Origin: Rickettsiales bacterium
GTDB lineage: Bacteria > Pseudomonadota > Alphaproteobacteria > Rs-D84
Length of the DNA stretch: 34,555 nt
Direction: 5' to 3'
Assembly: GCA_031256175.1 (NCBI GenBank)
Contig: JAIRRC010000009.1
Coordinates: 1 to 34,555, forward strand
Part shown: positions 9,647 through 33,537 of the stretch, piece after piece
Layout: every line of letters starts with the position of its first letter
Numbering within the stretch: position 1 is the first letter of the stretch
Made by a program: the position numbers and the translations under genes
Notes under the pieces: generated by a model
Seen by the model: the letters and a program-made list of their open reading frames with translations, nothing else
Databases searched by the model: none
Told to the model about the DNA's origin: nothing

Positions 9647-10696
9647 ATGCTCGAAAAACTCCTGACCCGTTTTCTCGCGCCCAAAGCCTCGGTGAAATTG
9701 ACCGCGGGCGAAATCGCGGACAAGCTCGGCCTCGAAATCCGGGGCAACCGCGATACGATTATAACGGGCCTCGCGCCGATAGCGGACGCAAAGCCGGGCC
9801 AGGCGGCGTTTTATTCGGCGGAAAGGAATTCCGCGGCGTTCAAAATCCTTCCGATAGAAGTCCTGAAAAACACGAAAGCGTCGGTCATCCTCTTGCAGCC
9901 CGAACAGACGGCAGACGCGCCGAAGGGCGCGACGCTTGTGGTTTCCGACAGCCCGCGCCGCGATGTTATAAAGATTATGGAAATCATATTCGCGCCGAAA
10001 AAGCGCCGCGGGATAGACCGCAGCGCGAAAATCGCAAGGGGCGTGTTCTTCCGCGATAAAAAATCCGTCTTCATCGGCCCGAACGTAGTTATCGAGTCCG
10101 GCTGCGCGATAGAGCCGGATGTGGAAATAGAGTCCTGCGCATACATTGGCGGGCGCAGCATAATCGGCCGCGGGACGACAATCGGCCCGAACGCTTACGT
10201 GGCGAATACGACCTGCGGCGCGGATTGCGAAATCGCGAACGGCGCGAGCATCGGCAAACACGGCTTCGGCTATTCGATAGTTGACGGGAAAAACATGCCG
10301 ATACCGCACCTTGGCCGCGTGGTCCTGGGCGACAGGATTGACGTAGGCGCGAACAGCGTGGTGGACAGGGGCGTCATGGCGGATACGATACTTGGCAGCG
10401 GGACGAAATTGGACAGCCTTGTTATGGTTGGGCACAACGTTGTATTCGGCGAAGAATGCTTCGCGGCGGGCCAAAGCGGCTTTGCCGGCGGCACGATTGT
10501 CGGCAGCCGGGCGAAATTCGGCGGCCAGGCGGGCGCGGTCAATAAAATCTCGGTCGGCGACGACGCGGAAATCGGAACGAATTCCTGCCCGACCAAGGAC
10601 GTCCCTGCGGGCTCGAAAATGCTGGGCTTTCCGGCGGTTCCGGCGAACGATTTTTTGCGTATGCAGGCCTTCCTCCGCCGCTCCATAAAACAATAA
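9647..10696 (+). CDS. lpxD: UDP-3-O-acylglucosamine N-acyltransferase
   Basis: Left-handed beta-helix hexapeptide repeats (IGPNVVIESGCAIEPDVEIESCAYIGGRSIIGRGTTIGPNAYV), HGFGYSIVDGKNMPIPHLGRVVLGD, GGQAG. Confidence 0.95.
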   Translation: MLEKLLTRFLAPKASVKLTAGEIADKLGLEIRGNRDTIITGLAPIADAKPGQAAFYSAERNSAAFKILPIEVLKNTKASVILLQPEQTADAPKGATLVVSDSPRRDVIKIMEIIFAPKKRRGIDRSAKIARGVFFRDKKSVFIGPNVVIESGCAIEPDVEIESCAYIGGRSIIGRGTTIGPNAYVANTTCGADCEIANGASIGKHGFGYSIVDGKNMPIPHLGRVVLGDRIDVGANSVVDRGVMADTILGSGTKLDSLVMVGHNVVFGEECFAAGQSGFAGGTIVGSRAKFGGQAGAVNKISVGDDAEIGTNSCPTKDVPAGSKMLGFPAVPANDFLRMQAFLRRSIKQ

Positions 10697-10705
10697 ATAA
10701 AAAAT

Positions 10706-10753
10706 AACTCCCCCCTTGCGGGGAGTCTGCGCCTCCGGCGCAGGTGGGGGGAC
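10706..10753 (+). repeat. Family A' palindromic repeat
   Basis: AACTCCCCCCTTGCGGGGAGTCTGCGCCTCCGGCGCAGGTGGGGGGAC; second copy with a different inner hairpin at 27857-27911; degenerate copy at 32176-32196. Confidence 0.85.
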
Positions 10754-17163: not shown

Positions 17164-17688
17164 TTAATAAGACCCAATCACGCCGTAATAATGATTGCCC
17201 GTGTCGCGGAGCGCGGCTTCCAGTTTCGCCTCGTTAAGCCCGCCGAAAAGAACCATAACTGTTCCTCCGCTTGTCGCAATCATGTCGTGAATGCAAGTTA
17301 TCTTTTGTGAAACGACTTTGAAAAAAGCGCTGGCGGTATTGACTTCGCCAACGCTTAGATTTTTCTTGCCCGCCTTTTTCGATTCGAACTCGCTGACGTT
17401 TCGGATGACGGCCAGCTGGCATTCCGGGGAAACGATAAGCTTGTCGACAAGCTTGACGTCGCCGGCGTCGACAAGGTGCAGCCACCAGTGCTTGTTGCTG
17501 GTCATGATTGGATAATAAAAAACGGCGTCCAACGGCAAGGTGCTTATTTTAGTTGTGTCGGAAACTATTTTGGGCATAAGGCCGGAATCTTTATAAACGA
17601 TTTTTCGCGCGGCTTCATAAAGGCTTTTGTCCTCTTGCAGGGCGGCGGGACAATAGAGCAGTGAAGCGGAAGAATCGATTCGTGGCAT
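17164..17688 (-). CDS. Hypothetical protein
   Basis: Start MPRIDSSASLLYCPAALQEDKSLYEAARKIVYKDSG preferred over 17862 because TATAAT lies 6 nt upstream of this ATG and the longer N-terminus reads through repeat-like sequence. Confidence 0.65.
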   Translation of the reverse strand: MPRIDSSASLLYCPAALQEDKSLYEAARKIVYKDSGLMPKIVSDTTKISTLPLDAVFYYPIMTSNKHWWLHLVDAGDVKLVDKLIVSPECQLAVIRNVSEFESKKAGKKNLSVGEVNTASAFFKVVSQKITCIHDMIATSGGTVMVLFGGLNEAKLEAALRDTGNHYYGVIGSY

Positions 17689-17886
17689 GCCTATATTATA
17701 GCATAAAACGCGCCCGTTTTCGACCCGATTTTTCAGCCCGAATTTAAGACTTGACTCCCCCGGTTTTTCTCGTCCTTCCCGCCACCCCCGCACATAGGCG
17801 GAAGGCGGGAATCCCAAATCGTATAAATCATTGCTTAGTATGAACCGGCGATATATAAGCAATTTTTTGCTTGATATTGTAAAAAT

Positions 17887-18687
17887 TCAAGCCACTTTCC
17901 GCTCGGGCCAATCAAAAATATTCGCGGAATTGTTTTTAGTATCTTCAATTCTATCTTTTATCGTATCGCAATATTCGGCGTTCAATTCAAAGCCCACGTA
18001 ATTCCGGCCATTCTTTATGCATGAAATAGCGGTTGTCCCGCTTCCCATAAATGGGTCCAAAACAAGTCCGCCGCGCGGGCAGCTGGCCAACACCATCCTG
18101 TCTATTATTTCCAATGGCTTCTGAGTTGGATGTTCCTCTCTTTCCGGGTCTTGGCGATGAAGCCTTGATACAGACCATAAATCTTTTGGATTATGCCCCA
18201 ATTCCAACCATTTTTTACCAACGAAAATCGAGCGGGTCCTGGCCTTTTTGGTTTCTTCATCATAAGGAACCCTAATTGAATCCAAATCAAAATAATGATT
18301 TTTTGACTTTGCAAAAAAACCTATCGTATCATGGACAGATGAAAATGACCTTGTGCTTCCACCCATGCTCGGCACTCGCCTGTCCCATACGATTTCATTC
18401 AGCATTATCATTTTTTTCTTAATGTATGAGAATATCTCCGGCGAATATCGCCAAGTAAGAAATATATACAAGCACCCATTTTCTTTTAGTTTGGGAATTA
18501 CAGCATCAATCCACCTGTATGTCCATTCAAGATACTCTTCCGGATCTTTTTTATCTGAATCGTTGCCATAGTCTTTACCTAAACAATACGGAGGGTCCGT
18601 CACTATCAAATCTACTGATTTATCGGGAATTCTGCTAACACCTTCAAGCATATCTTCGTTAAAAATTTTATTTACATAATCACGCAT
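17887..18687 (-). CDS. Site-specific DNA methyltransferase (beta-class adenine-N6/cytosine-N4 MTase)
   Basis: Motif IV VDLIVTDPPYCLGKDYGND near the N-terminus, motif I LVLDPFMGSGTTAISCIKNGRNYVGFELN near the C-terminus, HPTQKPLEIIDRMV. Confidence 0.93.
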   Translation of the reverse strand: MRDYVNKIFNEDMLEGVSRIPDKSVDLIVTDPPYCLGKDYGNDSDKKDPEEYLEWTYRWIDAVIPKLKENGCLYIFLTWRYSPEIFSYIKKKMIMLNEIVWDRRVPSMGGSTRSFSSVHDTIGFFAKSKNHYFDLDSIRVPYDEETKKARTRSIFVGKKWLELGHNPKDLWSVSRLHRQDPEREEHPTQKPLEIIDRMVLASCPRGGLVLDPFMGSGTTAISCIKNGRNYVGFELNAEYCDTIKDRIEDTKNNSANIFDWPERKVA

Positions 18688-19289
18688 TATTTCTTAGACC
18701 CCAAAACTATGCTCCTGGACTCCGATTTCAATAAGTTCAAGAATTCCTTCCTGCTCCTATATTCCGGTTTATGCTCATAAAACGCCTGTATCTTATCGTT
18801 GGTTGGGTTCACATATATCGGGACGAACTGCACGGAGAACACTCTGAGGTAATCCTTATCGAAAATAATATTCAATCCATCGAATCTGATTCCTATGCAA
18901 ACATAAAATATATCATAATCCGGGTTCGCCGTATATTGCGCGAACAGTTTAGCCACTGCGGTTACATCGTTTTTATTTTCTTTTCCGCCGACATTATGAA
19001 TTTTGACATTTATGAAAAGTTTTTTATCCCCGGATTTTATAACGCAATCATGCAGACATGTATCAGGCATATCAAAGTCCACCTCGTCCAAACCAAGTTT
19101 GCTCTTGTTATATTTCGTCTGTTGAGTAATGACCTGCTCCACCAGCCAGCTTACGGAGCGGGTATGTGGCTTTAACCCATACGGCAATATCCTATCATCC
19201 GTTATCTTAAACGAAGGCAATATCTTTGCTAATTTTTGATATAGCTTTTCAAGATACTCAACATTGCTCTTGATGTTCTCAATATTCAT
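18687..19289 (-). CDS. Putative type II restriction endonuclease paired with the methyltransferase
   Basis: TAATG overlap with the MTase start; DCVIKSGDKKLFINVKIHN resembles a PD-(D/E)xK-like D-x(n)-x-x-K core; GGAGG RBS; AT-rich like the MTase. Confidence 0.6.
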   Translation of the reverse strand: MNIENIKSNVEYLEKLYQKLAKILPSFKITDDRILPYGLKPHTRSVSWLVEQVITQQTKYNKSKLGLDEVDFDMPDTCLHDCVIKSGDKKLFINVKIHNVGGKENKNDVTAVAKLFAQYTANPDYDIFYVCIGIRFDGLNIIFDKDYLRVFSVQFVPIYVNPTNDKIQAFYEHKPEYRSRKEFLNLLKSESRSIVLGSKK

Positions 19290-31978: not shown

Positions 31979-32054
31979 TGGCAGGGGCGAGAGGAATCGA
32001 ACCCCCGACACGCGGTTTTGGAGACCGCTGCTCTACCAACTGAGCTACACCCCT
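31979..32054 (-). tRNA. tRNA-Trp (CCA)
   Basis: AGGGGTGTAGCTCAGTTGGTAGAGCAGCGGTCTCCAAAACCGCGTGTCGGGGGTTCGATTCCTCTCGCCCCTGCCA. Confidence 0.96.
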
Positions 32055-32308
32055 ACTTGCGCGCATTACCTTCGGCTTGCATGGCAGAATAACACGGACT
32101 TTCAGAAATGCAAGCGAAAAGGAAGCCTTATTTTACATTTTAGCCCCGCCCCAGGCAAGCAGAAAAATAAGAAATAACTCCCCCCTTTGCGTGGACAAAA
32201 AACGGGGCCCGCCAATATCCCAGAAGCCAAGCCCTGCTATAAGCAAAGAAAAAGCCACTTTCAAAATATGGCAGAAACAATCCCGCCAACGAATAATATG
32301 CAAAAATG

Positions 32309-33145
32309 CTATATTATCAAACGCATAGCAGCAGTTTGATTGGAAATCCAAGCTTCTTGGTGATTATGATACAAAGATAAACGCTCATTTAATGCCTGAA
32401 CTCTTAAAAATGGCAAACCCTTGTTTTTATCATCTTCGGTTGGATTATCTATCCTGCGTTGCTCATCAAGACACCATTTTTCGAATGTTTTTGAGTCAGA
32501 AATTTTTGAATCGACTAGAAAATTGTTAGTTTTATAGGATGTGTATTTATATGCATCTAAAAGGGTTGGTTGTCCATCTCCATCAACATCAACTGGCGCT
32601 CTTAACCAATCGAAAAAATTGTATAAAAACACATTCGCAGACCAATGACACCTTCCATCGTTTATAGGCGAACTTATAGACGGATAAAAATTACTAGCCC
32701 CGATTACGCATATATCAGAATGCTTCGGCATATTGAAAATTCCGGAATAACACTGCCCAAGCAAAAGCAAACCATCGGTTAAACCTGGTATTTTCTGCAT
32801 TTTCTCTAACAAATGATTTGGTTTTATGTTTGATGAGCAATTTATACCGTTTATATCACCATGGGAAGAAACTACGCAGCCAAGAAACGATATATTGGAA
32901 AATCCGTTCAATATTTCTTCCAATCTATCCGTAGAATACAACTGACCGGCCGATAACCCATTTGCAGTCAGAATCTTGCTCGCGCTCTGGAAATCTGAAA
33001 AATAATATATATTTGATTCATTGTTCTGGCGTTCTTTTATAATTTTCGCCGCGTTTATTATATCAAACATGAAACGCGGACTGGATTCTTTCCCGCATAT
33101 GAATAACCATTTCGAATCATTAACATTGTTGAGAATGCGAACCAT
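32309..33145 (-). CDS. Caspase-like (peptidase C13/CD clan-like) protein
   Basis: His motif VVSSHGDINGINC and Cys motif LLLLGQCYSGIFNMP, followed by ICVIGASNFYPS and VDVDGDGQPTLLDAYKYTS. AT-rich compared with neighbours. Confidence 0.65.
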   Translation of the reverse strand: MVRILNNVNDSKWLFICGKESSPRFMFDIINAAKIIKERQNNESNIYYFSDFQSASKILTANGLSAGQLYSTDRLEEILNGFSNISFLGCVVSSHGDINGINCSSNIKPNHLLEKMQKIPGLTDGLLLLGQCYSGIFNMPKHSDICVIGASNFYPSISSPINDGRCHWSANVFLYNFFDWLRAPVDVDGDGQPTLLDAYKYTSYKTNNFLVDSKISDSKTFEKWCLDEQRRIDNPTEDDKNKGLPFLRVQALNERLSLYHNHQEAWISNQTAAMRLII

Positions 33146-33151
33146 TTTCTT

Positions 33152-33388
33152 TTACTCAGCGAATAACACTAAATCCGTTTTATCAAAATCATCCGAAGAT
33201 GACATACCTATTATTTTACCATTTTCATCAAGATAATAATTTACGTTATTCATAATATGTAAAATATATTTTACCCCAGAATTGCCACCCACATCTGATT
33301 TCTGAGCATACAGAGCTACGTTACCCAATTTTACTGCGTTCTTTATTTCTGAGTCCAAGTTTGGCAAATCAGAATAATTTTTTTGCAT
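33152..33388 (-). CDS. Small hypothetical protein upstream of the caspase-like gene
   Basis: 6 bp upstream of the caspase-like ORF; MQKNYSDLPNLDSEIKNAVKLGNVALYAQKSDVGGNSGVKYILHIMNNVNYYLDENGKIIGMSSSDDFDKTDLVLFAE. Confidence 0.6.
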   Translation of the reverse strand: MQKNYSDLPNLDSEIKNAVKLGNVALYAQKSDVGGNSGVKYILHIMNNVNYYLDENGKIIGMSSSDDFDKTDLVLFAE

Positions 33389-33423
33389 TTCACAAACCTC
33401 TATTGTTTATTCATAATATCATA

Positions 33424-33450
33424 AAATTGCCCTTTTTTGAAAGGCAATTT
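33424..33450 (-). terminator. Terminator-like hairpin after tRNA-Leu
   Basis: Minus strand AAATTGCCTTTCAAAAAAGGGCAATTTTAT. Confidence 0.65.
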
Positions 33451-33452
33451 CA

Positions 33453-33537
33453 TGGTGGGCAAGGGGGGAATCGAACCCCCAAACCTTTCGGCGGCAGATT
33501 TTGAGTCTGCTGCGTCTACCAGTTCCGCCACTTGCCC
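33453..33537 (-). tRNA. tRNA-Leu (CAA)
   Basis: Acceptor GGGCAAG/CTTGCCC, A73, CCA encoded; anticodon loop CTCAAAA; long variable arm; T-arm GGGGGTTCGATTCCCCC. Confidence 0.95.

Follow-up and report, generated by a model that had tools for sequence, protein, structure and literature searches.

A predicted legumain-like protease and its small protein partner: a mobile bacterial gene pair and candidate phage-exclusion module

Caspase-type proteases already have a place in bacterial immunity, where they normally form part of larger systems; protease-activated bacterial gasdermins and the caspase-like Thoeris effector are cases in point. Enzymes of the legumain type (asparaginyl endopeptidases; MEROPS C13, PF01650), members of the same clan CD, frequently cleave after Asn. 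Protease-based accessory modules of mobile elements are likewise known. A caspase-like protease with a dedicated small target is seen in Craspase, which comprises the TPR-CHAT protease of type III-E CRISPR and Csx30 (reviewed in PMC10952713); a CHAT protease is also present in Borvo. The places in which mobile elements carry immune genes have themselves been described: anti-phage systems sit in P2/P4 hotspots (PMC9122126), and in PICIs immune systems occupy the 5' or the 3' end (PMC11364771).

Here we describe a gene pair from the window, by which we mean the whole 34,555-nucleotide stretch of DNA analysed (contig JAIRRC010000009.1 of assembly GCA_031256175.1). What is new in it is the combination of a legumain-type enzyme with a partner of its own. 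The protease resembles legumain in its predicted fold (best Foldseek E-value 2.5e-6, TM-score about 0.5), and its His-Gly, Cys-x-x-Gly and RH-containing N-terminal stretches align with those of legumain; however, the two share only 10-15% identity, the window protein has no evident signal peptide or C-terminal prodomain, and it differs further in its small partner, in an HQExW motif near its C terminus and in a DxDGDG loop. The clan fold is shared by caspases and metacaspases (C14), and such a loop would be in keeping with the Ca2+ dependence of metacaspases, but their structural similarity to the protease is lower than that of legumain and no C14 model matches. With Craspase and Borvo the pair has a caspase-like protease in common, yet neither CRISPR, TPR nor CHAT matches were found for it, and its partner is not Csx30-like in the libraries used. 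Unlike the gasdermin and Thoeris systems, it consists of two genes only, with no gasdermin, TIR or nucleotide-sensing gene. Finally, it shares with the accessory immune genes of P2/P4, PICI and cf-PICI elements an element-end or variable-slot position, an independent direction and a sporadic spread (PMC9122126, PMC11364771), although its own defence role is a candidate one, read from context.

The gene pair and its insertion site

The window derives from a 786-kb MAG (48 contigs) whose family includes Candidatus Enterousia. Read along the minus strand, the locus consists of tRNA-Leu(caa), a 78-aa ORF, a gap of 6 bp, a 278-aa ORF and tRNA-Trp(cca) (Table 1); the ORF list therefore agrees with the initial annotation, which had reported two co-oriented frames with this spacing. 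The motifs that it had claimed for the larger product (VVSSHGDINGINC, LLLLGQCYSGIF and VDVDGDGQPTLLDAY) are all present. The larger ORF represents more than chance, since full-length relatives are found at 45-52% and at 24-30% identity with the His and Cys invariant.

Table 1. Coordinates of the gene pair, its predicted functional sites and its insertion site in the window
Feature	Position	Strand	Basis
Small partner gene, 78 aa, first of the pair	33152..33388	-	ORF list; homology to the upstream partner at all other loci
Predicted clan CD, C13-like protease gene, legumain/caspase fold, 278 aa	32309..33145	-	AlphaFold, Foldseek, legumain profile match
Predicted catalytic His95 codon (SSHG)	32861..32863	-	Invariant among aligned members; in register with legumain His-Gly
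Predicted catalytic Cys132 codon (GQCYSG)	32750..32752	-	Invariant among aligned members; in register with legumain Cys-x-x-Gly
Invariant Arg24 codon	33074..33076	-	Aligns with legumain RHQAD stretch
EF-hand/dockerin-like loop DVDGDGQPTLLD, possible Ca2+ site	32555..32590	-	Sequence; D186, D188, D190 and D197 invariant
AT-rich inserted segment carrying the pair	32195..33452		G002 empty-site alignment (locus L015); native short repeat starts at ~32195
tRNA-Leu(caa)	33453..33537	-	Insert abuts tRNA 3' end
tRNA-Trp(cca), far side of insert	31979..32054	-	144 bp from tRNA-Leu in G002 empty site

An empty site is available in a genome of the same genus (G002), where tRNA-Leu and tRNA-Trp lie 144 bp apart without the pair. 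By comparison, the extra DNA of the window begins directly after the CCA of tRNA-Leu and runs to about 32195, beyond which native intergenic sequence resumes, including a short genomic repeat; the insert thus measures some 1.26 kb, its left border being exact and its right border placed to within 40 bp either way. The pair has a GC content of 34-37%, whereas the ribosomal and RNA-polymerase genes nearby reach ~50-57%, in keeping with the AT-rich island previously proposed between these two tRNA genes. The limits given for that island, 32060-33452, stand on the tRNA-Leu side but not at the other end, which we have moved to ~32195 because the last ~140 bp beside tRNA-Trp are native intergenic sequence common to G002. 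Both flanks of the insert align to a single uninterrupted segment of G002, which makes a chimeric assembly unlikely. No integrase was found at the tRNA-flanked site, and a search for direct repeats of at least 8 bp between the end of tRNA-Leu and the far border returned none, a single 9-bp inverted match being the only find. The window keeps a bare cassette only, beside tRNA-Leu and without a vehicle.

The short repeat at the right border (~30 bp, 32165-32195) recurs with 90% identity at 10695-10724 and appears to be native. Elsewhere in the window, near rpoC, the minus strand of 17164-19289 bears probable type II restriction-modification genes, namely an N6/N4 DNA methyltransferase (PF01555, E-value 3e-60) beside a protein with a sub-threshold SwaI-like match (E-value 0.003).

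Predicted protease fold and the small partner

The structure of the protease was predicted with AlphaFold. An earlier model based on four sequences was poor (pLDDT 59) and its fold matches were not significant; the prediction was redone with a 19-sequence alignment, yielding a mean pLDDT of 85, a pTM of 0.83 and a clan CD fold whose alpha/beta core includes strands 87-92 and 124-129, followed by H95 and C132, respectively. The top nine Foldseek matches in the PDB are human or plant legumains, after which come caspases and a GPI transamidase subunit, and comparison with viral models yielded giant-virus caspase-domain proteins. At the sequence level, the family profile matches legumain chains (6azt, E-value 3.5e-4) with the His-Gly and Cys-x-x-Gly stretches in register, and Peptidase_C13 (PF01650) is matched by 6 of 20 family members (best E-value 1.2e-5). 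The window protease itself falls short of the C13 family cut-off, with no PF01650 match in the Pfam scan, and is here called C13-like rather than filed as C13. As far as prediction can establish it, the fold is that of clan CD, and legumain-like rather than caspase-like. The caspase/C13 fold first suggested from the His-Gly and Cys-Gly motifs is upheld by AlphaFold, Foldseek and the profile alike, the protein lying nearer to legumain/C13 than to caspase/C14.

Among the aligned members the predicted catalytic His-Gly and Cys expected of clan CD are invariant. The invariant residues are R24, D28, H95, G96, G130, Q131, C132, G135, S156, S158, W168, N171, D186, D188, G189, D190, D197, Q263, E264 and W266. 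From D186-x-D-G-D-G to D197 the residues are spaced as in the Ca2+ loop of an EF-hand or a dockerin, and one relative gave a weak match to Dockerin_1 (E-value 0.25); the loop may bind Ca2+. Arg24 may have a role in the substrate pocket, and its alignment with the RHQAD stretch of legumain provides a hint, suggestive only, of cleavage after asparagine. No N-terminal signal sequence is evident, and a signal-directed secreted effector was set aside because the protease begins directly with the first core strand of the AlphaFold model.

Relatives of the window protease were reached only with alignments: on its own, the protein drew no match from Pfam, PADLOC, NCBIfam or PDB sequences, and single-protein scans of GTDB contigs and IMG/VR likewise found nothing. 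The collection was built stepwise from Enterousia-family genomes through a phage contig and GTDB contigs to two other alphaproteobacteria, and then to 15 further IMG/VR contigs, more on a second scan, and lastly E. coli. Weak matches in G056 (a fragment with an internal stop), G204, G838, G080 and G429 were excluded, being taken for chance matches, partial matches or distant domains of the C13 type. The same was done with a 1472-aa leucine-rich-repeat protein from Thiotrichaceae (L039, 3334-7752), which has a distant clan-CD-like domain with DHGG and LGACYSGSF.

A small ORF recognised by the partner profile lies directly upstream of the protease, on the same strand, in all 34 loci that have upstream DNA; the loci without a partner either start at a contig edge or represent a cut view of the window itself. 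The co-occurrence of the 78-aa ORF with the protease at homologous loci is thus borne out, although independent cases are fewer than 34, since several loci are near-identical to one another and only about 20 distinct types are represented. A partner profile built without any Enterousia-group row still finds the 78-aa ORF of the window, with an E-value of 1.2e-7. The spacing between the two genes ranges from -10 to +47 bp, and partner distances correlate with protease distances (r=0.94, a value reached in none of 2000 permutations), a co-divergence that is also expected from simple co-inheritance. Enteric partners match phrog_30138, which has no assigned function (E-values from 4e-24 to 8e-19); the match is established for these enteric members, which the family includes, and links it here for the first time to a protease. 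Partner matches to DUF2283, a methyltransferase and gamma-crystallin were insignificant and were discarded.

Distribution and genomic contexts

The protease is present in 4 of 201 genomes of the order. The pair occurs in at least 23 of 5,426 E. coli genomes, where it lies in prophages and satellites (11 and 13 matches, one shared) and the homologues are annotated as hypothetical protein throughout. About 20 further (pro)phage contigs with homologues were found in IMG/VR. None of 72,556 plasmids gave a match, and tblastn of phage and plasmid records found nothing, either with the window protein or with enteric homologues and their partner. No curated family covers either window protein, and searches of the open-access literature by accession and subject returned no description of the pair, weak evidence given that subscription papers were mostly outside their scope.

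The contexts vary. Among Enterousia genomes the pair is found beside tRNA-Tyr and tRNA-Gly, and in an Enterousia-group phage contig (IMGVR_UViG_3300010163_000459) it lies in the terminase/portal region, between the C-terminal part of the large terminase and a head-tail adaptor. The terminase large subunit of this contig is split between two ORFs with an opposite-strand repressor and DnaB block between them (L040, 766-5606); part of the contig may be mis-assembled, or the insertion may be real. The pair adjoins a large serine recombinase and DUF2924 in G117 and a recombinase in G035. In G131 just a remnant of the recombinase is left, its final codons following immediately upon a glycosyltransferase ORF, which reflects a deletion or an assembly join (L010, 9600-9760). 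At the putative R-M island of G231 the neighbour is a putative truncated HsdR ORF, with DNA methyltransferase-like and DUF2924-like ORFs nearby (translations read by eye). IMG/VR contigs position the pair between tail genes, by tyrosine integrases or by regulators, again as read by eye.

E. coli elements of several kinds carry the pair. Strain ABW_S38 has it beside fis, running against terL, where it closes a satellite with its own capsid, portal and terminase genes that appears to be capsid-forming-PICI-like; the nearest relative of this satellite without the pair has a 63-aa ORF in its place, and the cargo slot by terL in related E. coli satellites holds small ORFs and no known defence genes. 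Strains O114:H49 and 300490 bear it on a satellite-like element at tRNA-Ile with ClpP/capsid fusion genes. This element also encodes a HEPN-domain protein of 237 aa with no PADLOC match (L064, 21531-22244; L049/L061). A further setting is beside hokD in Rac-type prophages of strains SC418, STEC005 and 14EC029; a pair-carrying prophage of this type also has a gene annotated as anti-CBASS protein Acb1 family (L066, 25675-27111). Six other hokD slots were sampled: that of one strain contains a candidate defence gene, for a SIR2 protein matching the PADLOC candidate PDC-S25 (E-value 4.3e-143), one has two large uncharacterised proteins and four have no comparable cargo. The two large hypothetical proteins, from E. 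coli AH19E045 (L112, 93-2072), gave no convincing PADLOC match and may be a further cargo system.

Some copies are broken. Two E. coli genomes (matches H16 and H17) have IS1 inserted in the region of the pair, and the protease of one IMG/VR contig is frameshifted (L099, 3977-4896), hinting at a cost of carriage.

The direction of the pair is often opposite to that of the flanking phage genes, and it is therefore probably expressed independently. Strict pairing, independent direction, variable slots and sporadic presence across phages and satellites mark the pair as accessory cargo. Found sporadically, on unrelated elements and in unrelated slots for which empty sites exist, it is a mobile accessory module of the moron or cargo kind that travels with phages, their satellites and recombinase elements. 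The horizontal acquisition first suggested from base composition and tRNA-flanked location is accordingly supported by the G002 empty site, the sporadic presence within the order and these contexts elsewhere.

Proposed phage exclusion and competing explanations

The function to which we incline, with slightly better than even confidence, is phage exclusion of the abortive-infection type, by a protease that is held or triggered by its partner. The larger protein would be a cytoplasmic cysteine protease of the legumain type and the small protein its dedicated partner. In the resting cell the partner, translated first off the shared transcript, would either silence the protease or act as a sensor of infection. 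An infection cue, perhaps a phage product and possibly in combination with Ca2+ at the invariant DxDGDG loop, would free the protease, which would then cut host or phage proteins and so abort the infection, in favour of the resident element or the cell. Computation supports the fold family, the invariant catalytic pair, strict pairing, gene order, co-divergence, mobile contexts and the empty site; enzymatic activity, the part played by the partner, the trigger, the targets and a defensive outcome are proposals. The initial annotation had similarly suggested an antiphage or cell-death effector with the small protein as substrate, inhibitor or sensor, a proposal plausible from context only. We favour phage exclusion because the pair bears the marks of accessory cargo and because slots of this sort (P2/P4 hotspots, PICI ends) are known for immune genes, the hokD slot of one strain holding a candidate defence gene. 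Several observations count against it. Neither protein matches a PADLOC model, so that the pair does not class as a known defence system, and both are absent from defence libraries; non-defence genes also ride on prophages and satellites; only one of the six other hokD slots has a candidate defence gene; and the co-divergence would be expected from co-inheritance alone.

The arrangement of a small gene first and a toxin-like enzyme second, at short spacing, equally recalls addiction, with the protease as toxin and the upstream protein as inhibitor, serving to stabilise the element and only secondarily to defend. Strict pairing, co-divergence, carriage by many mobile elements and the IS1-broken and frameshifted copies, as would be seen for a costly gene, can all be read in this way. 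Nevertheless, no known toxin or antitoxin model of Pfam, NCBIfam or PADLOC matches either protein, no DNA-binding signature was detected in the partner, and the pair gave no match on the 72,556 plasmids searched, where addiction modules are usually common; as to membership of the toxin-antitoxin class, only gene order and spacing appear to fit, and we consider this explanation unlikely. Strict pairing would also be consistent with a partner that is the substrate, cleaved by the protease upon infection to release a fragment as effector, much as Csx30 serves the caspase-like protease of type III-E CRISPR. The C-terminal tail of many enteric partners is conserved and contains SLSN, which would suit the Asn-cutting habit of legumain-type enzymes. 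However, the tail is absent from the window partner and from other Enterousia-group members and so cannot be required, and the partner has no evident stretch of hydrophobic or membrane-active character; a substrate role seems to us decidedly improbable.

The position of the pair within the structural regions of some phages might indicate service to its own phage, through lysis control, host take-over or head maturation, rather than exclusion of others. Such a role sits poorly with the unrelated positions and directions that the pair adopts, on unrelated elements and satellites, beside recombinases and bare in a chromosome; moreover few genomes have it, even among close relatives, and it is therefore dispensable. 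We regard service to the phage as very improbable. Least credible of all is that the window pair is a decayed or neutral passenger, a functionless leftover: it does lie in a short insert without integrase or vehicle, but both frames are intact and every family-invariant residue has been retained.

Returning to phage exclusion, we tentatively raise the possibility, itself rather doubtful, that the pair represents a new family of immune modules: two genes, borne by phages and satellites, with a protease of the legumain rather than the caspase type gated directly by its partner and with Ca2+ as a possible co-trigger. If true, this would be a minimal two-gene death-protease switch in bacteria, extending from gut Enterousia-group organisms to E. 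coli. A two-gene legumain-type module on E. coli prophages and satellites, small and readily testable, would join the biochemistry of legumain with competition between phages, and families at present known just as hypothetical protein and phrog_30138 would acquire a name and a partner through it.
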